IMG/VR virus record: IMGVR_UViG_3300049783_001016
Coordinates: 1-50,503 of that record
Source: a virus
Strand: one strand, 5' to 3'
DNA length: 50,503 bases
Shown: piece by piece, positions 1,681 through 45,567 of the stretch
Position numbering within the stretch: the first letter of the stretch is position 1
Layout of the letters: each line of letters begins with the position of its first letter
The notes under the pieces: generated by a model
Databases searched by the model: none
Told to the model about the DNA's origin: nothing
Seen by the model: the letters and a program-made list of their open reading frames with translations, nothing else
Made by a program: the position numbers and the translations under genes

Positions 1681-1812
1681 TTATTTATTTTTAGGAACAC
1701 AGTTAGGTACGGTTCTTTTACCTTTCTTTTTCATGCCTACCATTTCATAGCCTTTCCAACAAGGTCCTTTTTTCATTAAAGGAGATCTTTCTATTTTCAT
1801 TTTATAACTCAT
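1681..1812 (-). CDS. Small CWKGYE-type protein, 43 aa
   Basis: A 43-codon gene whose ATG overlaps the stop of the giant protein as ATGA (1809-1812), so translation is probably coupled; an alternative inner Met lies at 1800. The product contains ERSPLMKKGPCWKGYEMVG and ends VPNCVPKNK. The GPCWKGYExxGMKxK...VPNCVP signature is one I have seen repeatedly in marine phage proteins, alone or as a module in longer ones; its function is unknown. The two cysteines could form a disulfide or bind a metal. It carries the SP motif (ERSPLM). Confidence 0.65.
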   Translation of the reverse strand: MSYKMKIERSPLMKKGPCWKGYEMVGMKKKGKRTVPNCVPKNK

Positions 1813-10800: not shown

Positions 10801-12005
10801 GACTGTCGTTTATCAAAACCTATTCCACCTTTATCAACAGGTGTATTTTCTAAGTTGTTTAAAAACAACCTTAATCCAGCTGTTCTTTTTCTCCAGTCTT
10901 TTAAAAGTGTTACATCATCTATTTTAGCTTTATTTTCATCTTGAGGTTGTACAGCACTTGATATAAAATTTTTAAAGCTTTCGTACTGAGGGTAACCATC
11001 ACCTCCAAATAGCTCTTGATCTTTACCAACTTTTAATACAAACTCGTTGCCTCTGGAATCAGTTATTAAAACTTCATTAACAGTTACATCGTCAGTAGTT
11101 TGTTCTACTTCAAACAATGAGCCATCAAACTGTTGAGGTAAAACTTGTTGTAATTCTTTTTCTACAATATTTTCATTTTTAGCTAGCCATGAATTATTCT
11201 TTTTAAATAGCTCGTCAAAATAATTACTAAAACCCATTTCATTTATAGCGTCATTTCTTCCATCAGCTACAACTTCAAAAGTGTCTAACACTCCTTCATC
11301 TTTTCCTGCTTTTAAGTAAGAATAAGTAACACTAGATCCGGCTTTGTTACTACTCTTGTTTAATGCTTCTAAATAATCTTCTAAAGAAGGAGAGCTAGAA
11401 TTAGTTAATTTAATAGCTTGCTTTACTATATCATTTTTATTATACAAATCATTGCCTGGTGTAAAGTATTTTTCCCAAGTGTCTTTTGGATAATAAGACT
11501 TGTGCTCTTTACCATCTTCACCTAAATGAGTTTTAACTACATACTTTCCTTCGTTTGAAATCTCATCAGGATTTATACTAGTTTTTTCAAGTAACCTAGA
11601 TTGCTTTTCTAATTCTCTCTTTTCTTTTGCAACTCTAATTTTATTTAATTTAGTGTCTGAAAGATTAGATAAAGTTTTATCTGCATTTTTTATTTCACCA
11701 ACGTCATTTAATTTTTGATCTTTTATATCATCTAAACTTATTTGAGCATTAGTTACTTTGTTTATTTTTTTATCTATTTTTTTAATACCTTTGTCAAGTC
11801 TTTTCTCTTTATTACTCTTTTCTATAACTTCTTCAGTATCTATAATAGGCTCTGAATCTTCTTCTATTTCGCTTAAATCAGTAGAAACTTCTATTTCACT
11901 ACCTTGATCTGCTAAATATTGATCTAGAGTTAAACCTAAACTAGTTGCTTTTTCTTGTAATAAATCTTCCTGTACGGAGCTACCTTGATAAGTATATTTA
12001 TTCAT
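1809..12005 (-). CDS. Giant internal virion / DNA-ejection-type polyprotein, 3398 aa
   Basis: Largest gene in the window, last of three ejection-type genes. Visible segments: acidic and coiled N-terminus (1-300); hydrophobic glycine-rich stretches around residues 760-900 and near the C-terminus that could insert in membranes; LHETGH at 1341-1345, a HExxH zinc-metallopeptidase-like motif; D2151...E2164-L-K2166, a PD-(D/E)xK-like nuclease signature; FDFDDTL (D2467/D2469), LTAR (2544-2547) and FADD (2599-2602), the HAD phosphatase motifs; then a long helical C-terminus with a common marine-phage sequence style (QQASTLGRFILAFANTPSQY). Phage proteins of this size in this position (compare T7 gp16 and crAss cargo proteins) enter the cell with the DNA and can bear several enzyme domains. 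Enzyme activity is inferred from motifs only. I see no RNA-polymerase DxDxD motif. Confidence 0.8.
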   Translation of the reverse strand: MNKYTYQGSSVQEDLLQEKATSLGLTLDQYLADQGSEIEVSTDLSEIEEDSEPIIDTEEVIEKSNKEKRLDKGIKKIDKKINKVTNAQISLDDIKDQKLNDVGEIKNADKTLSNLSDTKLNKIRVAKEKRELEKQSRLLEKTSINPDEISNEGKYVVKTHLGEDGKEHKSYYPKDTWEKYFTPGNDLYNKNDIVKQAIKLTNSSSPSLEDYLEALNKSSNKAGSSVTYSYLKAGKDEGVLDTFEVVADGRNDAINEMGFSNYFDELFKKNNSWLAKNENIVEKELQQVLPQQFDGSLFEVEQTTDDVTVNEVLITDSRGNEFVLKVGKDQELFGGDGYPQYESFKNFISSAVQPQDENKAKIDDVTLLKDWRKRTAGLRLFLNNLENTPVDKGGIGFDKRQSSYLGVIENASYTELFGYDPTKEQEESNPLSDAENPLINYQGGEVNIGSETTNATSGLDQNLIQGGIITPEDEDFGNSEAIDSNLKVLSSTEKSLKASYERQGLELTDDIIFSTAKLAIINKQKERYYKANAEKWIEDPRGLEKEKLRQGSIIGAVALEDAENQLLLDAATFEKNLAEANYNKIFSNYTVDVNNRAVAGFLFGDDDQKIKEDLSIDMTGNMQSYSVARDDLGFTTEDGYIKKVIDGEIKIQFIPQGTQISETYEDGQPVESIPTWMITKFNQNIVQLQESGKNVSIAYKNYSDELLEIPTFNQKMEIWLNNYNDTQEFFVKLGIGGLKTAKNIVYTAGSLASYVNPMYWSVYGLTGRDPMQGVMDANATITKWLDDELNEYNFDQVSFEDIFAPGTSGWKKLENFGAWMMGMTAETLPIVAAMIFSGGSASYGQIISSSIAGLSSMGGKLSEMDVNNFMVQNEIDEIRSRKDLTQEEKEKELIGLQERKINKGVYIAKGTAYGLIEGSLAYVTTAGQISNAYSVFRGDKAVLGELNTSIGMFLKKKGPEWLKAANTEGLGEVGVTFGTNIVDGRNPLEGMVESYVGGFALGGVFEGMPISHAIMTSNFATNAEIQSINDTQGEIISLSKRKDALIKKLKILVLMPDVNMADGLNKIKNKVEITKAINDIDQQITDQAGLLETKQVEVQNRLQDEGIGKSAGIIHAENVNKLSDLRNQASQLILDNPSMDETTTKKLTELNKRYKNIQNTSNKLKSKSLFGHKWLAMKGKAFWNTNTRNEVNSIEAQAIENIVKEKGPMVDGPTSREIQAESMKILDGRDYDANVSKAKSMAEKGGWGYFNFDSNKDAADQLPDLIARNLQNLEAEGVDVDSEINDGEGQTYREYIEQQITEALDGVRDGTTNGFYDPITNTQYTFRENAINNQKSGVPLHETGHAASQELIRNNPSAFNEAGQVIVDFMQSKYNDIFTRMQVEGTNKLRSSDGSWDFEEVFASYIEEVAAGNIDPKADKAFTAFFAKTFNDGLLKASDGNYEIEFKGVNDITQYLLGLGKDIVNGKINQRKIDKARETKVININQTPTTGSKIAASKSVKKSSSKTVKADLIAENKSLLKNRPKNFKEKIADNVRKIKDLASGSGSAPSSRMDGDNEPTSTKAKKAKESINSKFDENKKGWKQNRKENPAADKLFSLIQPDLDGMIKNKAENFFTQDGNVVDLTKNLDLRELQQSVKTLLLADIRGFDPTNTSLYGYINGRLKNRIGDVLKSGEVFNDLSTKDIDNLGSSETAEINKTKTTVETVPDVNLRESLNIDRGSPLGEFVLDNVKKVLSTKMPEFKYVRKNKGGKRTDVTLEQVKKVLATNPTGEIKRQADRDLSGIYKKFSNDLETRFSDELRTAFAETFGSRGDYTNWLETNAEAISDLSIDKLVAFERLVKGEKIFTKVVKENLSVEEVKQFQGTGLLVSATTNQGPTLYKKLYPSSKAVKEFFDISGSKKGTRKDALADKISGELALNATMEVAGDPSVLEKFELGLNNSGTGDVVVKAYLEDISKAIGRGAQLKFSKAFMNSNADIELKNTYKNNNKRFVDLLKKTGVTEENVDLVWDQVFGDTLFNKNAKNKKEADKIKKEWKGISKQIASVDSMLEDSVQMNILNSIIDDAGDFSDTERAELIARAKKLKLTGSKDVDFDDILSNLAKNLGLTEGYAYEQLVYDATSKAINDYNKNNSSESGLKIEGSRGEDGGKADFIATVGGMEFNVELKLKKPRFGSVTLKTNTDSKGNISFNIIKNFPFNNAMYDMANEAKPAIENYVKQANVIGKELYGDNWLNYEFGDLLDKEVFKALQGNKQNPNSQFQKDITVNKVRPAQDIADYYISKNNGTRQINIQGIGLYLLNDLKNPQLNNPANLNTNEAPYLGANGETVTWSLAISKTTAKSVKGPGKYQKAGIKLINGKLPGSSGWANVGLRIQPSLLKTTVKPKYDMSTVDGVTDLINDPAIKNLDNQKGESSQVNIDNNSNSGVVIKNSKSNTTNKNTIDIASKLDSSLDVARDPNAPIKKIRVFDFDDTLATSNNIVFANKGNETIELTAEEFAKKGDDLINDGYVFDFTDFNTVRDGARGPLFDIAKKIKESRGNEDLFVLTARNPLAADAIYEFLKSEGLEFKPENIIGLGNSTGEAKAQWLVDKGSEGYNDFYFADDAIQNVEAVKSAMEVLDVKSRVQQAKIKFSSEVSDVMNDIIAEATGVESYKEFSSMRAKAKGRTKNSWSLIPPSAQDFGGLLYKMLAKGEKGDSQWSWMQDNLIKPFGRAMNDLSIAQNQLMSDFRALKSSLKGVPTNLKKKAFGGFTFEEVTRVAAWDRQGLKVDGLSERDLKQIKEFVDGNPELNLFVDQLIELGKGDGYHYPGADWLSGTITTDFISGLRKDTRPRLLKQWNENIDLAFDEKTLNKLEAAYGSKYREAVEDSIRRMKTGQNRKAGTSRLEARFQDYINNSIGAVMFLNARSAVLQTISAANFVNWTDNNPLRAGAAFANQKQYWTDFMRLMNSDFLVDRRNGLKINVSESEIAEAAKTTGNSAKGVISYLLSRGFVLTQFADSFAIATGGSTYFRNRTKTYMKQGMSQADAEAKAFLDFREKAEDSQQSARADKISQQQASTLGRFILAFANTPSQYARIMDKAGRDLVAGRGDPKSNISKIMYYGFVQNLMFTALQGAMFASGFGDDEDEVSFEYFKDQGMSDKEAEKAMEYYNSKDSKKDMETANSMLDNILRGVGVQGVILATAKNVLLDLYRRSEKEGQYPGPEYGDNAWKLLEVSPPMSIKVKKYKGGLRDYEMNSWRPESGEPFNINNPSYRSAAKVISAVTNVPVDRAFQKMENVQGALDETNENWQRVAMLLGWPKWQLENQLQRAERFKQEKEGRKDYREQTKLKNTRQYKPKKLLTTDSYKAQQLKKQSDELFKLNKSVQVDSLRSLGLTTDAIKRLKYEKDRVNKIIELNNKL

Positions 12006-25345: not shown

Positions 25346-26836
25346 TTATGCTCCTTTAAATAACACGAAGTTATTAGCAGCTTGTGTAACTAAACATCTT
25401 TCAGATAGAAAGTGTACTTCCATAGCATCTAATCCTGAAGTATAAGCTCCACCTACAGATCCAGTGATCCAAGATTTATACCTTCTATCTTCAGTTTCAG
25501 AAGCTCTATAACGTACGTGTAAAAAAGGACGTCTAATGTTTGATCCCATTGATTGATCATAAACAGTTGTAGTACCAGCTGGAATCATAACACCATCAAT
25601 AGCGTTAGACATTCCTCTAGTAGTAGCATCGTTTAAATACTTCCAATCAGTTTTGTAAAAGTCATAAGAACCTCTTCTAAAACCTGAAAAACCAAAGTTT
25701 AAAGCCATTTCTTGCTCATTATCAAAAAGACCATAAGAAGCAGAAGCAGTAGAACCAAATCCACCACCAGCTTGAGCAGCAATCATGTCATCAAAATCAA
25801 GAGCCGTAGATCTTGATAAAAATAGCATGTTTTCCTCAATAGCACCTTGCTTGTCTAGTTGTTGTAGTATAGCATCAAAATCACCTAAAGCACCAGAACC
25901 AGGAGCAGCAGCTCCAGCAAAACCAGAGTATACATTACCTCTTGATTCGATAGCAGCGAATAATCCTTCAGAACCACTAACATCAATAGTTCCTGCAGCA
26001 CCAGCAGTACCATCATATTGGAAAGTATGTCCAGCTTTTTCTGATTCAACCATCATCATTTCTAAATAGTCATCAAATCTTAATCTTGTTTCAGACTCAG
26101 ATTTTAAGTACCATAAGTAACCAGATGTTCCATCTTCAGTAGCAACTTCAACCCAACCAATTTGTGCAGTATCAGAACCATTAATCTCAAAGTGATCTTT
26201 AAGAATAACAGGATTGTTACTAAATTGTGTAAAGTTTGGTTGAATAGCACCTACCATAGACTCTGTACCTTTACCAAAGTCAGATCCATATACAAAGATC
26301 TTAACGGCAGCACCTAACAATCCAGCAGACCAAGTAGTCTTATCATAAGTTACAACTTTTATTACATTTACAGCAGCACCATCAAATGGTGATCCGACTA
26401 CTAAAGCTTTTTGAGTAATTAACCCAGTAGCTTTATCAGAAACTAAAACAGTTTGACCTGTTCTAATAGCAACTTGTGCAGATTGAGTATCACCAACTCC
26501 AGTACCAATGTTGTTTACTGCTACTTGTTGAGCACCAGCGGCGCCTGAAGCAGTAGCATCATCATAAGCAATGTGTAATCTATTTTGCTCAGACCAAACA
26601 ACTTGATCAGATGTCATAGGCATTTCAGCGCCTACCATTCTCAAGAAACCAGACAAAGTCCTGTTTCCGTATCTTTCAACCTCTGCTTCATACAGTTCCG
26701 GTAGGTACTGCTGAGCAAAGTTATTATCAGCTCCAGCTGTTGTACCTGTAAAATCTAAGTAATTAGTTTTTAAAGCTAATTTCTTTTGTGAAGGTACTAT
26801 TTGAGCTGGAAATGATCCTTGTGTGTTAAAACTCAT
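25346..26836 (-). CDS. Major capsid protein (HK97-fold, crAss-like), 496 aa
   Basis: Begins MSFNTQGSFPAQIVPSQKKL. The N-terminal arm leads into YLPELYEAEVERYGNRTLSG, then mixed alpha/beta regions, an abundant Ala/Gly composition, a DDYLEMMMVESEKAGHTFQY helix and a C-terminal RPFLHVRYRASETEDRRYKS segment. Length, composition and position (scaffold upstream, accessory protein downstream) fit the capsid protein of crAss-like phages. Codon use is more G/C-rich and even than in neighbouring genes, as expected for the most highly expressed protein. It would be the main client of the encoded chaperonin, if that chaperonin serves assembly. Confidence 0.85.
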   Translation of the reverse strand: MSFNTQGSFPAQIVPSQKKLALKTNYLDFTGTTAGADNNFAQQYLPELYEAEVERYGNRTLSGFLRMVGAEMPMTSDQVVWSEQNRLHIAYDDATASGAAGAQQVAVNNIGTGVGDTQSAQVAIRTGQTVLVSDKATGLITQKALVVGSPFDGAAVNVIKVVTYDKTTWSAGLLGAAVKIFVYGSDFGKGTESMVGAIQPNFTQFSNNPVILKDHFEINGSDTAQIGWVEVATEDGTSGYLWYLKSESETRLRFDDYLEMMMVESEKAGHTFQYDGTAGAAGTIDVSGSEGLFAAIESRGNVYSGFAGAAAPGSGALGDFDAILQQLDKQGAIEENMLFLSRSTALDFDDMIAAQAGGGFGSTASASYGLFDNEQEMALNFGFSGFRRGSYDFYKTDWKYLNDATTRGMSNAIDGVMIPAGTTTVYDQSMGSNIRRPFLHVRYRASETEDRRYKSWITGSVGGAYTSGLDAMEVHFLSERCLVTQAANNFVLFKGA

Positions 26837-28056: not shown

Positions 28057-30498
28057 CTATGCTCCCATCATAGAACCCATCAAATCCATAGTGTTGTCAC
28101 TACCGGCTTCAAAGTCTATTGGCATGTCATTGTTTTCTCTTTGTGTAATCATAGCTGATTGTTGAGAGCCAACTATTTTAGCTCTTGTATCTTTTCTGTT
28201 TTCTATTTCTTGTTCTTTTTGTTTGTCTCTATCACCTCTCATAGTTTCCTTAGTGACCTCAGTATTAGCACGTAATTGAGCTAACTGCATGTCATATTGG
28301 AACTGAACATCTGCTAATTGTTGTTTAATCTCACTCTCTTTCAACATTCTCTGTATTTCAAATTGTGATTTGCCCTGTTCTATTTGAAGTGTTGTTTCGG
28401 CTAAAGCTTGTTGCTTTTGCATTTCAGCTGCAGATGCTCTTTCTGAAGACTCAGCATTTGCTGTAGCTTGCATTTGAACCATAGCCTGCTGCTGCATTTG
28501 ATCTTGCTCAGCTTTTTTCTTTCTTCTAACTTTTAATAATTGATTAGCTAGTTTCAAGTTGTGTATTTCTCTAACGTCTATAGCATCTTCTAAGGTTATA
28601 CTCTGTTGCTGTAAAGCCATTTGAATATTTTGTTCTAACATCGCTTTTTCAGCTTCATCAGGAACTAATGATAAATATACACCAAAATCATATAAATGTA
28701 AGTCTTTTAAATCTTCTAAAGTTCCTACATTGTATGAGCTTATTGAAGATCTCAAAGCATCTGCTGTCAAATCAAATTCTAAAGAGTCATTAATTCTACA
28801 TACTATATTTTCGCAAGTTTTAACTGTCAAGTATAAAGCAGATTGTAATATGTGTTTTGTAGCCACGTTCGAGTTGGCTGCAGCTAGTTTTTGTAAACCA
28901 ACCAAAGCATTTTCATTAGGCGTGCTAGCGTCTCTTGCTTCATTCAGTCCGGTTACATCTCTTATCATTTGTAAGTAATACTGATAAGTCTGTATTAATG
29001 AGGCTATTTTAGATTGACCACTAGAACTAGATAATTCTTGTATTGGAACTTTACCGTGATTTAAATCGCCGTCTTGAGTCATTGATCTACCTACTATACT
29101 ACCAGTTTGGAAATACATATTTAAAGCTTCCTGAGGGTTGTAAGTGGTTCCATTACCTAAGTCTACTTCTGCTAATCCATCTACATCCATAAATACACCG
29201 TCTGGTACTATTCTAGACATAACTTGTTGTAGTTTCAAATGAGTTAATTGAATCATATCAGCAAACCCAGTTATACGAGAAACTAAAGATTCTATACGCC
29301 CTTTATACATTTTAGGAGCTACTATGCTGTAATTCATGTTAACTTTAACTAGATTAGATTTTGGCCTTGTCATATTTTCCGCCATTTTCCACTCTAATAT
29401 CATATCATGACCTAGTATTTTTGCACCACTATACAGAACTTCTATTGATCTACTAACTCTTTCAAAGTTGTCATTAGGCGGTGGATTGAAAGTATCAGGT
29501 TTTTCTAAAGCTTTTTCTAAACCTGTAGGTGTTTGTTTTATTTTAAAAACTTGATCTGAAAAAGTTTTATATTCGTAATACAATACATATATCATATTAC
29601 CGTCATTTCTGCCGTTCCAGTTGTAAACCATGTTACTATTACCAGGGTATTTTGATATAGTTTCTAATTCTTCTGGCGTTAAATTTGGAAATTGTTTCTT
29701 TAAATCAGATAAAGATATTGCTTTAACCTCGCCTACATACCATAAATCTTGAAAGTTTGGATCTTCTGTATATGAATAAACTAAGTAAGCTGGGTCAACA
29801 TAACTTATAGTTATACCTTCAGATCTATTCCAAGAAGTTTTTACAGCACCAATACCTAGTATAGTTAAGTCTTCATTAAATCTCTTTCTAGTTAAGTCAT
29901 ATTTATTTCTGGCTAATACATTGTTTATGGCTTCTTCTTCAGCTATTTCAATAGATTGTTTGTAATCTAATTGCATGTGAAGATTTAACTCTTCTTGGTT
30001 TTGAGGTAGATCTTCTGGTTTTTCGTTTGAATAAAGATCAAGACCTGTTGCTTCTTTAACATTAGAAATATAAGAATTAGCTTCCATATCTCTAAGTATT
30101 GCCTCAGCATAATCAGTTCTCTTTTTTTGAGAGGTTGGATCTTGAGCAAATGCTTTTATGTCGTACTGTCTGTCTGACATGCCGTTTACAACTATATCTA
30201 CAAACTTAGGTATAATAGGTATAGGTTTCCAATCTAGGTTTAAGTAAGACAAATCACCATTTATAGCTAACTCGTCTTTATATTTTTGTACTGGCTGCTC
30301 TGCCCTAGCATATAATCTTAAATTTCTAAAATTATTAAAATTATAGTTATATCTGTTTTGAACACCAGATCTACTGCCGCTAAACCAGTCAGCCTCAATA
30401 GCTCTTCCGACTTGTTTACCGTAATCTAAACTTTCTTTGACTCTATCAGGCACAACCTGATCAGGAAAAGAACTACCGTTTTGAGTACTTATTTTCAT
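28057..30498 (-). CDS. Portal protein, 813 aa
   Basis: Lies directly downstream of the large terminase gene; the ATG begins immediately after the terminase stop. It contains FRNLRLYARAEQPVQKYKDE, a GDLSYLNLDWKPIPIIPKFV block, NRSEGITISYVDPAYLVYS and QLTHLKLQQVMSRIVPDGVF, which I recognise as crAss-like portal style. The C-terminal 170 residues are a Gln/Ala-rich coiled coil (MQQQAMVQMQATANAES and EMQKQQALAETTLQIEQG), matching the barrel or crown helix. The portal forms the ring through which DNA enters and leaves the head. Confidence 0.85.
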   Translation of the reverse strand: MKISTQNGSSFPDQVVPDRVKESLDYGKQVGRAIEADWFSGSRSGVQNRYNYNFNNFRNLRLYARAEQPVQKYKDELAINGDLSYLNLDWKPIPIIPKFVDIVVNGMSDRQYDIKAFAQDPTSQKKRTDYAEAILRDMEANSYISNVKEATGLDLYSNEKPEDLPQNQEELNLHMQLDYKQSIEIAEEEAINNVLARNKYDLTRKRFNEDLTILGIGAVKTSWNRSEGITISYVDPAYLVYSYTEDPNFQDLWYVGEVKAISLSDLKKQFPNLTPEELETISKYPGNSNMVYNWNGRNDGNMIYVLYYEYKTFSDQVFKIKQTPTGLEKALEKPDTFNPPPNDNFERVSRSIEVLYSGAKILGHDMILEWKMAENMTRPKSNLVKVNMNYSIVAPKMYKGRIESLVSRITGFADMIQLTHLKLQQVMSRIVPDGVFMDVDGLAEVDLGNGTTYNPQEALNMYFQTGSIVGRSMTQDGDLNHGKVPIQELSSSSGQSKIASLIQTYQYYLQMIRDVTGLNEARDASTPNENALVGLQKLAAANSNVATKHILQSALYLTVKTCENIVCRINDSLEFDLTADALRSSISSYNVGTLEDLKDLHLYDFGVYLSLVPDEAEKAMLEQNIQMALQQQSITLEDAIDVREIHNLKLANQLLKVRRKKKAEQDQMQQQAMVQMQATANAESSERASAAEMQKQQALAETTLQIEQGKSQFEIQRMLKESEIKQQLADVQFQYDMQLAQLRANTEVTKETMRGDRDKQKEQEIENRKDTRAKIVGSQQSAMITQRENNDMPIDFEAGSDNTMDLMGSMMGA

Positions 30499-32772
30499 TT
30501 ATTTTATTATTTGTGAAAAGGATCCATTGTTATCAAATTGTTTAATTCCTAAATTAATATTTTTTGTAGATCTAACTGATACAGGCCTATATTTGTTTTT
30601 GTTACAAGCCATTATAGCTAAACCAGAACTAATGGAAGCATCGTGCTTTGTCCTGTTGTTTATGTCAAATTGTGACCAATCTTCTAATGTTTTTTGATGA
30701 TAAACATCACCATATTCTTCGTCTACTCTGCCAACATAATTTTCTATATAAGCTTCTATAGCGGCGGCGTGAGACTGCTTTATATCTTCACTTGAGTTAG
30801 GTATTCCACCAATTTCTTTTTCGGTTACAGAAAGTTTATTCCAAATTTTATCAGGACGATTAATAGAAAATCCTCTATAACCTCTACGTTTTAAATAGTA
30901 TAATAATCTAGGTTTATTATTTTCACAAAGTAATGGCATGCCATAAAAAACTAAAGCCATTAAAACATCTTCAAAAAATATCTCAGCTGTTTGAGGTCTA
31001 GATATATATTCTAAAAAAAAATGATGAGCAGGTACTTGTTCCATAGAAAACTTTGTTAATCCATGTAACGATCCTTTACTGCCGCGACCGTCAACAGTAC
31101 CACTGATATCATAAGAATCACAACCAAAAGCTCCAATGTGTTCGCTGCCTGGGTATTTATTTCCATTTTTTAATATTACATTATTTTGTAATTGAGTATT
31201 TGGTATCCAAGATATATTAAATCTTCCGTTTTTATTAGGTGTTAATAATACCTTAGTATCTTTTATACCGTTTTCCCATTGAAAATTACCACGCACTATT
31301 TTCTTGTCATTGTCAACATCCTCATTGTAATCTATTTGTTCATAAATTTTAGTTAAATTAAATAAACTAGATTTAGTTTCGTCTCTAAATGCATGCTTTT
31401 CAGTTCTTGGGAATTGACGATAAAATTCATTTAAGCTATCTTGATCTTCTTTTAAGCCTTCGACTTCGTTTTCCCAGTGTTCAATAACTCCAATTGTAAT
31501 AGGAATACCATCTGCTCCTTTGACTTTATCTTTTGGCGTAATGAATACAGGTAGTCCGTAAGTATCCATGTATCCTTCGTAGTTCCATTCCATAGGAATG
31601 AACAAAGAATAGAGTCCGCTAGAAGTTTGTCCGTTTTTATTTCTTTCTCTAACGTCTGAATTGTTGTATAGTTTTTTGAAATTATTTCCACCTTTATCTA
31701 ACGCATTTGAAGTTGAGCCCATCATACACTTGCCTACGATTTTTCTTCCCAGTCTTAATGTTGTTTTTGTAACTCGCCAGTTGTTTAATATGTTGTCCGG
31801 TCTTTCCCATTTTCCACTTTCGTCGTGTGCTAATATTTTTAATTTCTCACCATCGTAAGAGTTATCGCCTGTATTTTTCCAGTCAATAGTTGTATCAAGT
31901 CCATCAAGTTCCTCTAATTGCTCATTACTTTCAAGCTTTCTTCTAGTAAGTTTTGAAGCCGGAACCCTATACGCCAGTTCTGTCTTAGGACGATCCATAC
32001 CGTCTTGGATCGGCTTGAAGAAAAACGGATAGTTAACGGATATTGGCACAACTTTATCCGTGAACATTTTTTTAGCATCTGATCCAGATTTAGATAATAT
32101 ACCGAATCTGGCATCACTGGATATCGTCGCTTTATTAACAAGCTCTGCTGAGGACATAAATGAAAATCCAGACCTTCTGTTTTTAAGGTAGCACATGCCG
32201 TAACATCTGTTATCTGCTTTGCATGCTTCCCAAAATATATAGAATAATCTATTTGCTTCTCTATAATCTGGTGCTCCAATATCAATTTTTGACCATTGCA
32301 AATACATGTAATGAGTACCAGTAATATAAGTAGCAATTCCTTTATTGTAGAACCAATAACCTTCCTCTCTTTTTCTAAATTCTTCATCTATATAATCAAA
32401 CCATTTTTCTTTAAAATCAACAGGATATTCTTGCCAATCAAATCTTGTTTTAATTCTATTTAGCTCTTTTGGGTACTCTGCTTTTTCCCAATATTGTTCC
32501 GCTTTTTCTTTGCTTCGTTTAAACGGTTCATTTGTTGCTGGTAAAGCAACCCTGAGATTCTGTATTTCAATGATTTGTCCAATTTGTCCAGTTTTACTTA
32601 TTACTATAAAATCATAATCAGAGTTATAACCATACTCCCATTTTTTCAAACGATTTTGCTTCTTTAATATTTTAGGATTAACAACATCTAAAATATTTTT
32701 ATAAAGAGTTTGATTATATCCATGTTTATTTTCTTCTAATTCAAAAGGAAGATCTAAAAATGATTTGCTCAT
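30499..32772 (-). CDS. Terminase large subunit (TerL)
   Basis: ATPase/nuclease motor that packages DNA. KNRRSGFS at 197-204 is the deviant Walker A used by this phage group, ILAHDE at 313-318 is Walker B, and GSTSNA near 352-357 is the coupling motif. GCDSYDISG at 550-558 supplies the first acidic residue (D552) of the RNase H-like nuclease, with further acidic motifs (EDVLMAL; HDASISSG) downstream. Blocks such as THYMYLQWSKIDIGAPDYRE and RCYGMCYLKNRRSGFSFMSS are typical of marine crAss-like terminases. The start overlaps the small-subunit-like gene as ATGA (32769-32772). At 757 aa it is of normal length for the group. Confidence 0.95.
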   Translation of the reverse strand: MSKSFLDLPFELEENKHGYNQTLYKNILDVVNPKILKKQNRLKKWEYGYNSDYDFIVISKTGQIGQIIEIQNLRVALPATNEPFKRSKEKAEQYWEKAEYPKELNRIKTRFDWQEYPVDFKEKWFDYIDEEFRKREEGYWFYNKGIATYITGTHYMYLQWSKIDIGAPDYREANRLFYIFWEACKADNRCYGMCYLKNRRSGFSFMSSAELVNKATISSDARFGILSKSGSDAKKMFTDKVVPISVNYPFFFKPIQDGMDRPKTELAYRVPASKLTRRKLESNEQLEELDGLDTTIDWKNTGDNSYDGEKLKILAHDESGKWERPDNILNNWRVTKTTLRLGRKIVGKCMMGSTSNALDKGGNNFKKLYNNSDVRERNKNGQTSSGLYSLFIPMEWNYEGYMDTYGLPVFITPKDKVKGADGIPITIGVIEHWENEVEGLKEDQDSLNEFYRQFPRTEKHAFRDETKSSLFNLTKIYEQIDYNEDVDNDKKIVRGNFQWENGIKDTKVLLTPNKNGRFNISWIPNTQLQNNVILKNGNKYPGSEHIGAFGCDSYDISGTVDGRGSKGSLHGLTKFSMEQVPAHHFFLEYISRPQTAEIFFEDVLMALVFYGMPLLCENNKPRLLYYLKRRGYRGFSINRPDKIWNKLSVTEKEIGGIPNSSEDIKQSHAAAIEAYIENYVGRVDEEYGDVYHQKTLEDWSQFDINNRTKHDASISSGLAIMACNKNKYRPVSVRSTKNINLGIKQFDNNGSFSQIIK

Positions 32773-33044
32773 TTGCTTCTCCCTTCTGCAAAACCTTTAA
32801 AAGATTTTTGATCTTTAATTTCTTTTGGTTTTTCATTTAAAATATCCTCTTCATCTTGTATGCGAGTTAAAATTTCAAAAGCATCAAATATGGCTAATTT
32901 TTTTGTTGCAGCAGCATTTTTAAGTCTGTCAGCTGAGATATCATCTCCTGAGTCAACGATCTTTTCTTGTGCTACTTTAATTAGTTCTTCAACTGCTTTT
33001 TGCCCAGCTTGGATTATTTTCTTTTTCGTTTCCTTTATATTCAT
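32769..33044 (-). CDS. Probable terminase small subunit, 91 aa
   Basis: A short helical protein (KKIIQAGQKAVEELIKVAQE, then ADRLKNAAATKKLAIFDAF and EILTRIQDEEDI) whose stop overlaps the TerL start as ATGA, a strong sign of coupled expression. Helical size and location immediately before TerL fit a small terminase subunit that recognises phage DNA, but no helix-turn-helix can be proven by eye. The start lies 56 bases inside the upstream gene; the Met at 33044 follows MKI-like A/T-rich sequence and gives the full helical N-terminus. Confidence 0.6.
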   Translation of the reverse strand: MNIKETKKKIIQAGQKAVEELIKVAQEKIVDSGDDISADRLKNAAATKKLAIFDAFEILTRIQDEEDILNEKPKEIKDQKSFKGFAEGRSK

Positions 33045-33585
33045 GGGTTAGAGCTATATTATTTGATTTCATACAATAGAGTCGTTCACCATTTATAATA
33101 AACTCAAACTCAGAGTCTGGAGTGAACGTAATAAGTGTTCCAGGGGTTATTCCTAGCGCTTCTAAGGTCTTGTTAGTATATTTTAATATACCAAGCTGGG
33201 TTTGCTCTTTATTGTTGCTTAATTTGTCAATATTCTTAACTGGACTGACAAAGCAATAATTTAAATGAGATTTATTATTATACATGTATATTTGCATGGG
33301 ATCGCAAAAATACATATCATCTTTAAAATATGATCTGCTGTTTTTTTCTTTACCTTTAATATCATAAAATCTTCTAAAAACATTATGATGTACAAAAACT
33401 TTATCTCCTTTTTTAATCTTAGTTTTGTAAGCAGCTGGCACTTCTATCACCATTGCTTCTTTACTTACATTTTTAAAAGTTTCTATTTTTGTATTTATTA
33501 TTAAAGTTTTCCCACCAATCTTTTTAGTATTATTATATCTACCTTCTAATGGAGATACAATAAAATCATATAGACTTTTCATCAA
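32989..33585 (-). CDS. GroES-like protein with two tandem Cpn10-type halves (putative), 198 aa
   Basis: The first half has DFIVSPLEGRY, GGKTLIINT, IKKGDKVFVHHN and MYFCDPMQIYMY. This follows the order of a GroES barrel: N-terminal strand, GG-hydrophobic loop, KxGDxV turn, C-terminal strand. The second half repeats the pattern with YCFVSPVKNI, LGITPGTLITFTPDSEFEF and LYCMKSNNIALTHEY. The C-terminus ends NNPSWAKSS. I recall close relatives in marine phages near terminase genes. The GroES-like reading is inference by pattern; structure prediction would decide. It overlaps both neighbours (ATGA upstream, 56 bases downstream), placing it in the packaging operon and well away from groEL. Confidence 0.5.
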   Translation of the reverse strand: MMKSLYDFIVSPLEGRYNNTKKIGGKTLIINTKIETFKNVSKEAMVIEVPAAYKTKIKKGDKVFVHHNVFRRFYDIKGKEKNSRSYFKDDMYFCDPMQIYMYNNKSHLNYCFVSPVKNIDKLSNNKEQTQLGILKYTNKTLEALGITPGTLITFTPDSEFEFIINGERLYCMKSNNIALTHEYKGNEKENNPSWAKSS

Positions 33586-39387: not shown

Positions 39388-40790
39388 TAGTCAATATAAT
39401 TATTAAATCTTTCTGAGTTTGTATTCATAGATATGTTTCCAACACGCGATGTTGTAGATCCATCAGTTGGAGAATCATTTTGGAAAAAACGACCTCTAAA
39501 ATTATTCATTTTCACGTCACCTTTACCAATCCAACTTTCAAGAGCATTATCATAGTCTAATCCTCCACCATCATTTCTCGAACCACCCCATTTATTTTCA
39601 AAGTCAGTATTCTCTTGGCTATCTTTCCATTGCTGCTCAAACATTTCGTTTCTAGCGTTGGTTATATCAGCTCTATTTTTTGAATCAAATCTATTGTCAT
39701 TAGGTCTCATGAATTCAGAAAAAGAACCATCTGGTGCAACTTGAGAATATTGATAACCAGCTACAGGATTATTATCGTCTTGACTCTGCCATTGAACCTG
39801 GTATTGTTTTCCGTTTGGACTAACAAATTGTCTCATATTTGGATTTCCTGGAACTTGATTTAAGTCATTGAAATAATCATATGATTGTGATGCGACACTT
39901 CTTTGTTCTTGAAAATTTGCAACATCTTTTTTTAAGTCTGATTTAAAATCGTAAATATTTTTATAACCACCAATATTTGGAGATCCATCTCTTTCGTATT
40001 GTTTCCACAACTGTTCTCCAACTACAGATAAATTAGTTCCTCCTGTAGAGCTCCTTGTTTGTGTATTATCAATAAAGTTTTGTGTTTGAACATTACCATT
40101 TCTATTTTCACCTGATATTATGTTTCCAGTTTTAGAAACATCGTAATTTCTTTTGCCTGTACCGCTATCGTAAGTAAAATTACTAGAAGACATATTACGT
40201 CTTGGTGGCGTTACTGTAGCTGTTGGAAGCACGGTGCTAGCTTTTGAAGTGTTTTTATTTACTGTAGCTTGTATCTTTGGTACTTGAGTTTCTTGCTTTT
40301 CTAATTCTGGTTTATTTGATGGAAGAGTTGCTGATGGTTTTTTGTTTGTTGTTTTTTTAGATTTTGTAGGAGTTATATTTTTTATTTTATCTATTAAACT
40401 AGGTCCTTTTGTATATTTTCTTTTAGAAAAGCTTTTATTTTTTTTCTTTTTTGGTTTTTTACCATAGTCTGTTTTATTCAATGGACTATCACCTGCTTTT
40501 TTATAAGCTTCTTTTTCCCATGGTAAGTTTTTAGCTCCCTCGTTCATTTTGGCTCTAGAATATTCTTTTCCTTTCCAAATGACTTTATTGTCGTTATAAT
40601 CTAAATCACCTCTTTGCATTTGGTCAATGTGCACAGACTCATGTTTAACTATGTCTTTAATTTGCTTTGGATCAACAACATCTTTATTTATATGTATAGT
40701 ACCATCTTTATTGGCCTTGCCCAAAACACCATCTTCCATATCGACTTTAACAATAGGAGAATTAAAAGGATTTCTTTTTTGTTTATACAT
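39387..40790 (-). CDS. HExxH metallopeptidase-like protein with SP motif, 467 aa
   Basis: The N-terminal 100 residues contain HESVHIDQ (H50-E51-x-x-H54) followed about 38 residues later by LPWEKEAYKK, so E92 or E94 could be the third zinc ligand as in gluzincin-type peptidases. The block TIHINKDVVDPKQIKDIVKH is conserved in marine phages as I recall. AGDSPLNKTDYGKK at about 99-112 is an SP-motif copy. The remainder is Lys-rich, then Ser/Asn/Thr-rich and low-complexity, with a C-terminus of short Gly/Asn-rich motifs. Peptidase activity is inferred. A role in wall crossing or virion maturation is possible. Confidence 0.6.
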   Translation of the reverse strand: MYKQKRNPFNSPIVKVDMEDGVLGKANKDGTIHINKDVVDPKQIKDIVKHESVHIDQMQRGDLDYNDNKVIWKGKEYSRAKMNEGAKNLPWEKEAYKKAGDSPLNKTDYGKKPKKKKNKSFSKRKYTKGPSLIDKIKNITPTKSKKTTNKKPSATLPSNKPELEKQETQVPKIQATVNKNTSKASTVLPTATVTPPRRNMSSSNFTYDSGTGKRNYDVSKTGNIISGENRNGNVQTQNFIDNTQTRSSTGGTNLSVVGEQLWKQYERDGSPNIGGYKNIYDFKSDLKKDVANFQEQRSVASQSYDYFNDLNQVPGNPNMRQFVSPNGKQYQVQWQSQDDNNPVAGYQYSQVAPDGSFSEFMRPNDNRFDSKNRADITNARNEMFEQQWKDSQENTDFENKWGGSRNDGGGLDYDNALESWIGKGDVKMNNFRGRFFQNDSPTDGSTTSRVGNISMNTNSERFNNYID

Positions 40791-40959
40791 TTTTATAAGG
40801 AAATTTTTTATTTAATTTTTCTCGTCTACCTGCACAACCACAGTCCTTGCCTGTAACTTCGCTAACTTTATCAACAACAGCTTTTATTCCAGTTGAAGTT
40901 GTGAAATTATGAATACTATCTCCAAGACCTTTAGATTTTATATTAAAATTAAAACTCAT
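40783..40959 (-). CDS. Small DCGCAGRRE-type protein, 58 aa
   Basis: Encodes a short protein with GIKAVVDKVSEVTGKDCGCA followed by GRREKLNKKFPYKNV. The CxC pair with following Arg-Arg-Glu and the FPYK end form a pattern I recognise from many marine phages (a 'GKDCGCxxRREKLNxxFPY' mini-protein); its function is unknown. It overlaps the HExxH gene start by eight bases and shares one base with the stop of the upstream gene (TAATG), so translation is coupled. Confidence 0.65.
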   Translation of the reverse strand: MSFNFNIKSKGLGDSIHNFTTSTGIKAVVDKVSEVTGKDCGCAGRREKLNKKFPYKNV

Positions 40960-41315
40960 TATTTACGTTTTTTTGATTTTAGCGCTAAAACTTGTTTAGC
41001 CAATTCATCTAGTTTACCGTCAGTCTTTGTGCCATCTTTCACTAATGTGGAAAGCACTTTAATTTCTTCAGATAGTATATCACCCATCTGTTCCATCATA
41101 TCAACTCTTTCTTTTAGATCTTCTATATTAGCATGATTCCATTGTTCTTTTAAATCATACTCTAATCTCTTAACCTCTGTAGGTGGCATTCTTTTAGCTA
41201 AATCAATATCATCTTGTAATGAATAATACATACCAACAAAAGTTGTTGTTAACATTATTATACCTATTACTGTTTTTATATCAATTTTGAATTCTGTGTT
41301 TTCAGATATTTTCAT
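40959..41315 (-). CDS. Membrane-anchored coiled-coil protein (possible spanin-like), 119 aa
   Basis: The Met at 41315, two residues before SENTEFKIDIKT, is chosen over the upstream Met at 41357, which would overlap the amidase gene by 56 bases instead of 14. Residues 12-32 (DIKTVIGIIMLTTTFVGMYY) form one membrane helix. The rest is a long coiled coil (VKRLEYDLKEQ, EDLKERVDMMEQMGDI) ending LALKSKKRK. Its location directly after the amidase, and its N-terminal anchor plus periplasmic-type helix, resemble an inner-membrane spanin. No outer-membrane partner is identified, so this is inference. Confidence 0.6.
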   Translation of the reverse strand: MKISENTEFKIDIKTVIGIIMLTTTFVGMYYSLQDDIDLAKRMPPTEVKRLEYDLKEQWNHANIEDLKERVDMMEQMGDILSEEIKVLSTLVKDGTKTDGKLDELAKQVLALKSKKRK

Positions 41316-41715
41316 ACTCTCCTGTTGCATCAAATGACGGGCATGCTTTGTTAGCAAACTCGCTGTGTGAATAAATAACTGCCTCTGGATACATTGCTTT
41401 AAGTGTTTTAAGCACGTTTAAGAGACTATCTTTCTGTTCTTGTGTTCTAGTATCTTTCGGAGTCTTACCATCTGCTTCAACGCCTCCACAATAACATAAA
41501 CCTATAGAATTACGGTTATGACCCTTGCAGTGAGCTCCGACACGATCTATATTTCTACCTTTTTTAATAGTTCCGTCTAGTTCGACGTAGAAATGATAGC
41601 CAATGTCGCTCCAGCCCCTAGAATTAATATGCCAGTCTTTAATTGTTTCAACTGGTATATCTTGTCCTTCTCTAGTAGCAGAGCAATGTATTATAATTTC
41701 TTTTACTAATCTCAT
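41302..41715 (-). CDS. N-acetylmuramoyl-L-alanine amidase (T7-lysozyme type endolysin), 137 aa
   Basis: Amidase_2 family by IIIHCSAT (H10), GYHF (Y40), VGAHCKGHN, GLCYCGG and HSEFANKACPSF (H117, K123, C125). H10, H117 and C125 match the zinc ligands, and Y40 and K123 the catalytic pair, of T7 lysozyme (H17, H122, C130; Y46, K128). No signal peptide, so it needs a holin. It cleaves the bond between muramic acid and the stem peptide in peptidoglycan. The start overlaps the stop of the 51-aa membrane gene (ATGA), defining a lysis group. In T7 the related enzyme also restrains RNA polymerase; nothing suggests that here. Confidence 0.92.
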   Translation of the reverse strand: MRLVKEIIIHCSATREGQDIPVETIKDWHINSRGWSDIGYHFYVELDGTIKKGRNIDRVGAHCKGHNRNSIGLCYCGGVEADGKTPKDTRTQEQKDSLLNVLKTLKAMYPEAVIYSHSEFANKACPSFDATGEYENI

Positions 41716-42042: not shown

Positions 42043-43338
42043 TTATTTTTTAAATTTACTTAAAGTTTTAGCTAAATTAGCTCTTTGTTGTGTTTTCTTA
42101 CCGTACTCTCCATCAGCAGCGGCATTTAATTTACTTTTTGGTATTTTCTCTCCTTCTGCAACACCTAAATCTTTTCTAAGTTGACCTGGTTTTTTAATAG
42201 CTCCCTTTATCCAGTTTTTTTTTAATGGAGTTTTAGCTCTATCTACTCTATCACCCATCCTATTAGCATAATCTTTATTAGAAATTCTATTTTTACTGTA
42301 GGTTGTGCTAGGAACCATATTAGGAGTCCCATCGGCTTTAGTTCCAATATTTTCCATAGTAGTTTTGCCAGGTCTCATTTCGTAACTAACAGTATCTTTT
42401 TTATCAAAACTTATAGATTGAGATAATGGGTATGCAGATTTTGCTGGCCTATATTTTTCCCCTGATTTTTGTTTTTTAGGTGGATCTACGTGCATATTAT
42501 TAAATGGTGATTTCTCAGCTCCACCCATAGTATCCATGTTAGGATTCATCGGGTCTGATGGAGGATTAGGTTGTCCCATAGAGCTTGCTATGTTAGAGAA
42601 CATTTGTTCATTTTGAGATTGTGAAGCTGGCACTTTAGATGGATCCTGGTAATTATTAGGATCATTTATAAGTACATTGGAATTAACAGGTCTTCCTGCT
42701 CTGTTTGGCTGAGCTGGAGTTTGCATAGGATCTTGCATGCCATCCGCATTGCCCTGAACGCCTGTAGTGTTTGGATCTAAATAATTCATAGGTGATTTTT
42801 GTTTACGATATTGTTTTCTTGCTTTTTTCGTTTCTAAATTAGCTTGTTTTTGTGAAATTCCTTTTTCTTTTGTAAAGCTAAAAGTTGGAACTGCACCTGG
42901 CTTGTTAATTGTTAGCTTTTCAGGACCATCTTGTCTTGATCTTCTTATATTATCTTTTTTCTCATTAAATGCTTCTCTAGCATTTGACTTCATTGCTTTT
43001 CTTTCTTTTTTAGCTTGCCTAAACTGATCAATAGGATTCTTGCCAAAGTCTTGTTCAAAAGAACTACCTACATTAGTAGGCTTTCTATTGTTCATAGGTT
43101 TTATACCACCACCTTTATTTGTGACAGTTCCATCTATGTCATTTATGTTTGAAGGTATATTTCCAGGTATTGAACCAGTTGGGTCTTGCTGTGAAGTAGT
43201 TGGCTGCACATTGTTACTGGAAGTTATTTGTTGCTCACTACCATCAGGCAATATGTTAACCCTATCATTTAAGTTAGCGAATACATCTTTAATTCTTGAC
43301 TTTATTTTTTTAGGGCTTTCGTAATCATTTTGTGCCAT
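42043..43338 (-). CDS. Basic, disordered SP-motif virion-region protein, 431 aa
   Basis: Low-complexity (Pro, Asn, Gln, Lys). It carries KQKSPMNYLDPNT, AEKSPFNNMHVDPP and RAKTPLKKNW, three variants of the SP[MFL]-type motif seen in other proteins here. The C-terminal 55 residues (WIKGAIKKPGQLRKDLGV, EGEKIPKSKLNAAA, then RANLAKTLSKFKK) form a small basic module that I have seen in many marine phage proteins, with a role unknown to me. It overlaps the winged-helix gene by one base (TAATG). A virion cargo or DNA-binding role is inference from charge. Confidence 0.65.
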   Translation of the reverse strand: MAQNDYESPKKIKSRIKDVFANLNDRVNILPDGSEQQITSSNNVQPTTSQQDPTGSIPGNIPSNINDIDGTVTNKGGGIKPMNNRKPTNVGSSFEQDFGKNPIDQFRQAKKERKAMKSNAREAFNEKKDNIRRSRQDGPEKLTINKPGAVPTFSFTKEKGISQKQANLETKKARKQYRKQKSPMNYLDPNTTGVQGNADGMQDPMQTPAQPNRAGRPVNSNVLINDPNNYQDPSKVPASQSQNEQMFSNIASSMGQPNPPSDPMNPNMDTMGGAEKSPFNNMHVDPPKKQKSGEKYRPAKSAYPLSQSISFDKKDTVSYEMRPGKTTMENIGTKADGTPNMVPSTTYSKNRISNKDYANRMGDRVDRAKTPLKKNWIKGAIKKPGQLRKDLGVAEGEKIPKSKLNAAADGEYGKKTQQRANLAKTLSKFKK

Positions 43339-43775
43339 TACTTATCTTTTTTAAAATTAATTATTGCTTTTTTTAATACTTTATCTGAATAACAACCACC
43401 TTTCATTATCTTATTTGAAATAGGTGACAAAGGTATTTCATCCTCACCCATCATTATTCTATATATCTTAGCAATAAGTTGTTTGCATTTAAAAGAAGCT
43501 TTATATAAATGATATTTTTGAGTTGTGTGATTTCTTTTTCTCCAAACAATTATCCAGTTCTCTTTTAACAGCCTGTTCCATCTCCTGTTATCCCAACTAT
43601 AATAATAAGAGCCTTGTTTAAAATCTTGCTTACTAAACATACCAATACTATCTAAGTATATTAATAACTCTAAATCAGCATCGGTTATGTTATTGTTTTT
43701 ACAAGCCCATTTTCTTATTACTCTGTAATGCTTTAATATATTTAACTCTCTTATCTCTTTAGAAGTTATTCTCAT
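43338..43775 (-). CDS. Winged-helix (MarR-like) DNA-binding protein, 145 aa
   Basis: Pattern ILKHYRVIRKWACKNNNIT, ADLELLIYLDSIGMFSKQDF, SWDNRRWNRLLKENWIIVW, RKRNHTTQKYHLYK. This reads as helix, DNA-reading helix pair, then a beta wing, typical of a MarR-type winged helix. The C-terminus carries IMKGGCYSDKVLKKAI. Proteins of this type recur in marine phages of this sort. It follows groES with an ATGA overlap (43772-43775), so it belongs to the chaperonin operon. It could regulate late transcription, perhaps at the palindrome near 45940 (untested). Confidence 0.6.
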   Translation of the reverse strand: MRITSKEIRELNILKHYRVIRKWACKNNNITDADLELLIYLDSIGMFSKQDFKQGSYYYSWDNRRWNRLLKENWIIVWRKRNHTTQKYHLYKASFKCKQLIAKIYRIMMGEDEIPLSPISNKIMKGGCYSDKVLKKAIINFKKDK

Positions 43776-44032
43776 AAAACTATAACAACATCTTGCTCTT
43801 TTATTATTTTAAAAGATTTTCCGTCTATATCAACAGAAAAACCGGCATGCCTATCATAAAATATAATATCTTTATTTTTAATAAAATTAACTTCTTCTCC
43901 TTTTATTAAAACTTCAGCTTTTTTATATCTTATATCTTCTCTAGACTTATCAGACAATATTAAACCACCTTTTGTTTCAGTGTTTTTATTTTGCGTTTCT
44001 TTTATTACTATATATTTACCTACTGCTTTCAT
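43772..44032 (-). CDS. groES: Co-chaperonin GroES, phage-encoded, 86 aa
   Basis: Contains AVGKYIVIKET (first strand), KGGLILSD (mobile loop with the conserved GG-hydrophobic tip that contacts GroEL), a KAEVLIKGEEVNF barrel strand and IIFYDRHAGFSVDIDG followed by KIIKEQDVVIVL. This matches the GroES fold. It overlaps groEL by ATGA (44029-44032), so the two are coupled and made together. The order (groEL first, groES second) is the reverse of the bacterial operon. The length is 86 aa versus 97 in E. coli; the roof loop seems shortened. It probably works with the phage GroEL. Confidence 0.85.
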   Translation of the reverse strand: MKAVGKYIVIKETQNKNTETKGGLILSDKSREDIRYKKAEVLIKGEEVNFIKNKDIIFYDRHAGFSVDIDGKSFKIIKEQDVVIVL

Positions 44033-45567
44033 GCTCTTAAGTTATTAATTACACAATCAGTTGATAATATAGTAGATGCTACTGAAGCCGCATTTCTAAG
44101 AGCACTTTTAGTTACTAGTAAAGGATCTATTATTCCGGACTTTACCATACTTACCGTTTCACCTGTAACCACATTTAATCCTTCACCTTCAACATTAGAG
44201 TTAGTATAATTAGTAATACCAGCATTGTTTAATATAGTATTGTATGGTGATTTAATAGCATTAAACAATATTTCTTCTGACAAGTTGTCAGCGTTAATAT
44301 TATCTGCAGCATTAAGCAAGGCTATACCACCTCCTGGCACTATACCTTCTTTTATTGCGGCTTTTGTAGCACAAATAGCATCTTCTACTCTATCTTTTTT
44401 TTCTTTAAGTTCTATTTCAGAATTTGCTCCAACTTTTATTACCGCAACCTTGGCTAATAACCTAGCAATTCTTCTTTCAATCTTTTCTTTAATTAAAGAG
44501 TTTTTTTCTTTAATTATTTTTTTTCTTAAAAAATTAATTAAATTCTGAACTTCAATTGGCATTTCATCTACTTGTATTAAAGTTTCTGAAATACTACTTA
44601 TTGTCTTTTTACAAGAACCCAATAGACTAATATCTATTAAATCCATATCATCACCTAAGTCTTCATTTATTACAGTTGATCCTGTTATTAAAGACAAGTC
44701 TTCAAGCATTTCTTTTCTATTAATACCATAAACTGGTGAATTTATTACATTAACTTTTATATTACCTTTAACTTTATTCATTGCTAAAGCACTTATAACT
44801 TGAGGATCTAAATCTCCTATTATTAATAAAGATTTTTGTTCTGAAATAATATATTCTAATACGTTTTGTATTTTTCTTATATTATCTATTTTACTGTCTA
44901 ATATTAAAATTAATGGCTCATGCAGTTCGCAAGTTTTATCTTCTTTATTTGTAATGAAATGATCTAAAACACAGCCTTGTTCATATTGAACCCCCTCTAT
45001 TCTTTCTACCTCTGTTATTGGACTTTCATGCGTTTCCATTAATACAATTCCTGTATTGTCTACGCTTTCAAAAGCTTTACTTATTAATAGTCCTAAATCA
45101 TTATCATTATTGGCTGAAATTGTAGCTACTTGTTTAATTTTATCTTCAACAACTGGTGTTGAGATTTTTTCAAGATATTGCACTACTTTTTCTACAGCCG
45201 TATTTATTCCTTTTTTTAGTTCCCTAGAAGTTATGTCTTTGTTTTTATTAGCTTCCATTAATATAGCGTGTGCTATTACTGTAGCTGTTGTCGTTCCGTC
45301 TCCGGCTTCTTTAACTGTTTTTCTAGCTGCTTCTTTTATTAATTTAGCTCCCATATTTTCAACAGGATCTAGTAGAACTATAGAATTAGCAACAGTAACA
45401 CCATCTTTTGTTATTATAGGGTTTCCACTGTTGTCTTCCATTATCACACACTTACCACTAGCTCCAAGAGTGGAGCTAACGGCTTGTGTTAATTTATTTA
45501 TTCCATTGAATATTTTATTTCTAGCATCTTCACCGAAGTTTAAATGCTTTACAATTGCATCACTCAT
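44029..45567 (-). CDS. groEL: Chaperonin GroEL, phage-encoded, 512 aa
   Basis: Full-length Cpn60. ITKDGVTVA (D55, equivalent to E. coli D52) and GDGTTTAT (89-96; the D90 nucleotide motif) lie in the equatorial domain. The apical domain spans about 180-350 (VERIEGVQYEQGCVLDHF, then LLIIGDLDP). The intermediate/equatorial return has KDRVEDAICATKAAIKEG (D396, equivalent to D398) and PGGGIALL. The end is GIIDPLLVTKSALRNAASVA with D481. It lacks the GGM tail and is about 36 residues shorter than E. coli GroEL. In the apical binding groove, E. coli YLSPYF corresponds to CVLDHF, so client or GroES contacts may differ. Catalytic aspartates are intact, so it is probably active. Confidence 0.95.
   Translation of the reverse strand: MSDAIVKHLNFGEDARNKIFNGINKLTQAVSSTLGASGKCVIMEDNSGNPIITKDGVTVANSIVLLDPVENMGAKLIKEAARKTVKEAGDGTTTATVIAHAILMEANKNKDITSRELKKGINTAVEKVVQYLEKISTPVVEDKIKQVATISANNDNDLGLLISKAFESVDNTGIVLMETHESPITEVERIEGVQYEQGCVLDHFITNKEDKTCELHEPLILILDSKIDNIRKIQNVLEYIISEQKSLLIIGDLDPQVISALAMNKVKGNIKVNVINSPVYGINRKEMLEDLSLITGSTVINEDLGDDMDLIDISLLGSCKKTISSISETLIQVDEMPIEVQNLINFLRKKIIKEKNSLIKEKIERRIARLLAKVAVIKVGANSEIELKEKKDRVEDAICATKAAIKEGIVPGGGIALLNAADNINADNLSEEILFNAIKSPYNTILNNAGITNYTNSNVEGEGLNVVTGETVSMVKSGIIDPLLVTKSALRNAASVASTILSTDCVINNLRA

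Follow-up and report, generated by a model that had tools for sequence, protein, structure and literature searches.

What does a phage do with a complete groEL-groES pair of its own, and is the pair a recent acquisition or an old phage possession? The question is raised by IMG/VR record IMGVR_UViG_3300049783_001016, a linear 50.5 kb record whose full 50,503 nt were analyzed and are called the window here. Two overlapping genes on its (-) strand encode the chaperonin GroEL (44029..45567, 512 aa) and the co-chaperonin GroES (43772..44032, 86 aa). Both open reading frames are intact and both pass Pfam and PHROG, with GroEL matching PF00118 (3.5e-54) and phrog_5725 (2e-134) and GroES matching PF00166 (2.7e-9) and phrog_3188 (2e-13); each Pfam match exceeds its curated cut-off. 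The PF00118 (Cpn60) match covers GroEL residues 26-508 of 512 and profile positions 1-487 of 490, giving the homology across equatorial, intermediate, and apical domains that marks a group I chaperonin. The smaller protein combines a Cpn10 (PF00166) fold with a mobile loop bearing a hydrophobic tripeptide. The groEL stop codon and the groES ATG share four nucleotides as ATGA (coding-strand junction AGAGCATGAAAGC), confirming the complete, coupled pair described in an earlier sequence-only reading. That reading also placed the pair among phage structural and lysis genes, and the same strand indeed carries an amidase endolysin (41302..41715; PF01510 1.6e-13, phrog_822 1.9e-57), the head genes, the portal protein (28057..30498; phrog_6547 7e-135), and the terminase large subunit TerL (30499..32772; phrog_6681 1.6e-163). 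One further (-) strand gene encodes a 53.3 kDa virion structural protein that is a candidate major capsid protein (25346..26836; phrog_13704 4.5e-88). Sequence searches of the PDB with the candidate capsid protein, the portal, and the muzzle protein returned nothing useful.

The two proteins were compared with close relatives found by searching IMG/VR with GroEL. The best 80 of at least 582 confirmed relatives were analyzed, and these 80 plus the window form the clade of 81 discussed here. The sequence-only reading stated that the catalytic aspartates are retained, and the alignment agrees by equating window D55, D90, D396, and D481 with D52, D87, D398, and D495 of the E. coli type. The window keeps these four ATP/Mg aspartates and the GDGTTT motif, as do 80-81 of the 81 clade members (the count of 80, at D52, reflects one truncated row gapped at that position). 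The alignment also confirms that the E. coli groove segment YLSPYF is CVLDHF in the window, although most clade members differ from the window in this segment (position 199, for example, is L in 67 of 81). The GGM tail reported missing is absent from all 81 clade GroELs but present in 38 of 47 cellular ones. The apical positions with which E. coli GroEL contacts substrate and lid are changed, some of them to one new residue (Q234, A262, and M263, each fixed in 81/81), while F204 and L237 are kept. Such a pattern would be expected if the phage GroEL had an interface of its own for lid and substrate. Additionally, the E. coli ring-ring contacts R452, E461, S463, and V464 are not conserved in clade GroELs, and the phage oligomer may consequently be a single ring or otherwise different.

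GroES retains the mobile-loop motif GGLIL and is about 3 residues longer around the mobile loop and about 9 residues shorter in the roof. Its AF2 model (pLDDT 85.5) has the GroES fold with strands absent at the position of the roof hairpin, and the top PDB matches of the model are GroES chains. As read from the aligned sequences, the apical face, the ring-ring contacts, the GGM tail, and the GroES roof are thus altered clade-wide, whereas the catalytic residues are not.

The pair is part of a larger conserved unit. A basic protein of 145 aa (phrog_17028) is encoded at 43338..43775 (-) and overlaps groES by 4 nt, which makes the unit a three-gene cassette. Among the best 80 of at least 582 relatives, groES lies directly downstream of groEL with an overlap of 1-26 nt in 80/80, and the 145-aa gene comes next after groES in all 79 contigs of sufficient length. 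Homologues of the 145-aa protein also adjoin groES, on the opposite strand, in Flavobacterium phage elemo and in Podoviridae sp. ctfjg026. Seven metagenome bins ("genomes") of unrelated taxa, considered as cellular relatives, were set aside as apparent mis-binned viral contigs, given the viral arrangement and overlap of the two genes and their place on the tree. The labels of the bins that hold such viral-type groEL-groES contigs include Euryarchaeota, Maricaulis, Rickettsiales, and Aliivibrio.

We consider it likely that the pair forms a functional group I chaperonin dedicated to the phage. Its two subunits would be made together from one translationally coupled message, probably late in infection, and GroES would dock onto an assembled GroEL ring, forming an ATP-driven cage. 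The cage would fold phage structural proteins in place of the host GroEL/GroES. The likeliest client is the candidate capsid protein of ~53 kDa (25346..26836), whose assignment as capsid protein and chaperonin client we infer from its position and size. T4 gp31 offers an analogy, as the prevailing view is that its wider lid without a roof enables GroEL to fold the T4 capsid protein of 56 kDa (PMC6318259). Like gp31, the window GroES lacks the roof and has a lengthened mobile loop; unlike T4, which relies on host GroEL, the window encodes its own groEL. By the same logic, a roofless, wider lid would probably enlarge the chamber for the capsid protein, and the missing roof and longer loop, taken with a 53.3 kDa candidate capsid, point to a dedicated folding cage for structural proteins. 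The coincidence of gene order with GroEL lineage, described below, also supports the cage model. Counting against it are the non-conserved ring-ring contacts and the behavior of the chaperonin of phage EL, which prevents aggregation but showed neither rhodanese refolding nor binding of E. coli GroES (PMC7185714).

A protein encoded near TerL may be a more interesting lead than the pair itself, a view held with moderate confidence. This second co-chaperonin-like protein (32989..33582 (-), 197 aa; phrog_13932 2e-23) probably has two GroES-type domains, and its gene lies two genes 5' of TerL, with a 91-aa ORF between. The family phrog_13932 is labelled co-chaperonin GroES, and its C-terminal half also matches true groES genes. 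Because GroES profiles took in the TerL-side protein on iteration, their evidence was treated as circular, and the assignment draws instead on hhalign with decoys, PHROG, Pfam in homologues, and fold searches. The C-terminal domain is assigned to the GroES type by its PHROG profile, by hhalign against cellular GroES (92% and E 6e-7, where no decoy exceeded 1.8%), and by Pfam Cpn10 matches above cut-off in homologues from Cellulophaga phages phi13:2 and phi38:1. The N-terminal half reaches 21% in hhalign against decoys of at most 2.2%, and the case for a GroES-type domain there is weaker. An AF2 model of moderate confidence (pLDDT 71.6) finds its best PDB match by Foldseek in chloroplast Cpn20 (7ekq_R) over nearly its whole length, with a Z of 9.3 across 152 residues. 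Each of the first 21 Foldseek rows is a GroES-type chain or a chain of that Cpn20 complex, although none reaches E 0.001, and the best named match in a viral structure library is a chaperonin cpn10 of Cellulophaga phage phi18:3.

Homologues of the 197-aa protein occupy the same place in elemo, phi13:2, and phi38:1, where at least one record names them cpn10 or GroES. All 17 long clade contigs examined contain this protein along with GroEL and a GroES match, as do phi38:1, elemo, Maribacter phage Panino, and ctfjg026. When contigs were fetched by means of the tandem protein, five of the ten showed no GroEL, all five being linear fragments. Phage phi13:2 (KC821633.1) has a tandem-type cpn10 at 40708-41310 and a small GroES-like stretch at 30087-30311. 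The large, unrelated Flavobacterium phage MaF61 encodes, at 2412-2975 of the locus and just before a divergent groEL, a 187-aa chaperonin with two Cpn10-matching stretches that may be another tandem GroES.

Cpn20 has two head-to-tail GroES-like domains, as the 197-aa protein probably does, although the N-terminal one is weakly supported in the phage protein; the likeness is one of predicted fold, whereas the sequences differ (~15% identity). Chloroplasts likewise pair Cpn60 with Cpn10 and Cpn20. Tentatively, these flavobacterial podoviruses may encode a three-part, chloroplast-like system of GroEL, a coupled roofless GroES, and a Cpn20-like tandem lid, in which mixed or alternative lids could perhaps adapt the cage to capsid or packaging proteins; we see this as a real possibility without favoring it. 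The double-domain GroES type has been described as chloroplast-specific (PMC5780408). Should the protein near TerL prove to be a genuine tandem co-chaperonin, a phage would have a double-domain GroES of this type, and the question becomes why a phage should need two kinds of lid.

Two other accounts of the pair divide the labor differently. The lid could serve mainly the host GroEL, as T4 gp31 does, with the phage GroEL secondary or specialized. In phi13:2, no GroEL match was found in the whole 72 kb record, which suggests that the tandem protein and the small GroES-like stretch are kept in the absence of a phage GroEL. However, groEL adjoins groES throughout the clade with its ATPase site intact, and the coupled arrangement suggests that the two products are each other's partners, which renders this account unlikely. 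Alternatively, the phage GroEL could act alone, as a single-ring or open holdase of the EL kind with GroES as an accessory. In its favor are the changed ring-ring contacts, the loss of the GGM tail, and the alterations among lid-binding residues, together with the precedents of phages EL and OBP (PMC7185714; PMC5934643). EL gp146 is, like the window GroEL, phage-encoded, divergent, and equipped with an ATPase, which in the window is read from its residues. However, gp146 is 22% identical to E. coli GroEL and has no recognized GroES, whereas the window GroEL is 36-41% identical to cellular GroELs and is coupled to one. Moreover, groES is never parted from groEL in the 81 loci and keeps its mobile-loop motif, so a GroEL acting alone appears improbable. 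The preferred reading remains that of a cognate pair forming a phage-dedicated cage.

The history of the pair is told by its gene order. Cellular loci were sampled from Bacteroidota and Pseudomonadota; in 48 of the 49, groES comes first and is separated from groEL by a gap, and the remaining one has no nearby groES. In contrast, all 81 clade loci have groEL then groES, as expected from the earlier statement that the order is opposite to that of bacteria. The survey of related phages that the same reading proposed gave a mixed answer. The groEL-first order recurs in elemo (68 records), Panino, and ctfjg026, whereas Cellulophaga phi38:1, Flavobacterium immuto, Bacteroides DAC20, and MaF61 are groES-first. 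No adjacent groES was found in four Vibrio phages, a Manatee Spring siphovirus, a 735 kb phage, and Crassvirales phage cr108_1. In Panino, groES (7691-7957 of the locus) begins 121 nt after groEL and is annotated as a hypothetical protein.

All reversed-order rows form a single group on the GroEL tree. The groEL-first label switches once (support 84) in a quick tree of 92 GroELs, and in a more careful 49-row tree the groEL-first group has support of 100/100 and a stem of ~2.3 substitutions per site. With one switch and so long a stem, the reversed order identifies a single, old phage lineage of this chaperonin. The sequence-only reading had suggested that the pair was either reassembled or long resident in phages; long residence is supported by the single long-stemmed group, whereas reassembly is not needed when one order switch suffices. 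The root of the phage clade falls outside Bacteroidota in the quick 92-row tree and beside immuto among Bacteroidota in the 49-row tree, and the AU test (p 0.42) does not decide between the two placements. On neither tree is the phage branch nested in a single genus.

Very little credence can be given to the pair having been captured recently from a single host genus, or to a contig that was wrongly joined to host DNA: groES-groEL operons do occur in bacteria, the best PDB sequence match of the phage GroEL is a reconstructed Fibrobacteres-Chlorobi-Bacteroidetes ancestor, and the 49-row tree sets the clade among Bacteroidota rows, but capture is rejected by identities of 36-41% to all 47 cellular GroELs against 61-96% inside the clade, by the opposite gene order, and by a long stem with no single-genus nesting on either tree, and a join is ruled out because the same cassette recurs in 80 further contigs (the best 80 of at least 582) and 145-aa homologues stand beside groES in elemo and ctfjg026.

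The phage itself had been described as crAss-like, a label that the data do not bear out. Named TerL matches are Elemovirus, Pervagoviridae, Pachyviridae, Maribacter phage Panino, and contig ctfjg026, the last being the closest in the phage collection (63%). The matches are confined to phages of Flavobacterium, Cellulophaga, Tenacibaculum, and Maribacter plus one further record. The nearest named relatives (Elemovirus, Pervagoviridae, and Pachyviridae) fall outside Crassvirales, and the sole direct crAss signal in the window is a muzzle-domain match of 24.2 bits, below the cut-off of 27. The window comes from a marine phage, kin of known flavobacterial podoviruses.

Three of these relatives show how far the arrangement extends. 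Elemovirus genomes (e.g., NC_055853) share the overlapping groEL-groES order, the adjoining 145-aa homologue, and the TerL-side co-chaperonin; however, the elemo GroEL is ~39% identical to that of the window, its ATP-site match is weaker (G88 is S), and its 145-aa homologue is on the opposite strand. Podoviridae sp. ctfjg026 (MW202828, Manatee Spring) has overlapping groeL and cpn10 genes and a TerL-side co-chaperonin in the same place but a different chaperonin neighborhood, in which the 145-aa homologue is convergent and annotated as a repressor. Phage phi38:1 (Pervagoviridae) has GroEL, GroES, the TerL-side co-chaperonin, and a related TerL, although its groES precedes groEL with one gene between, beside the DNA polymerase.

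The sequence-only reading considered a co-transcribed cognate GroES unusual in a crAss-like phage, a view that elemo, ctfjg026, and Panino (groEL-first) and phi38:1, immuto, DAC20, and MaF61, all likewise paired, do not support. The groEL-groES arrangement was already known for such phages and is common to every close relative checked. The order of large- and small-subunit genes in viral chaperonins reportedly follows GroEL phylogeny, as described by Marine et al. in ISME J in 2017. GroEL was published in 2017 for the phi38:1 group, in 36 environmental genomes of Flavobacteriaceae phages (PMC5332604), GroEL with GroES has been reported for Panino (PMC11590407), chaperonin cpn10 is listed as a core protein of Pervagoviridae (PMC8776804), and some phages are noted to carry both subunits (PMC7185714). 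Chaperonin-carrying phages are common in the sea, and the window pair is one more example. The clade nevertheless offers a clean test set: its GroEL-GroES pairs are conserved, the changes where substrate and lid bind are fixed, and the elemo phages and phi38:1 are cultured relatives that make these changes open to experiment. Elsewhere in the window, a very large ORF of 3398 aa occupies positions 1809-12005 (-).
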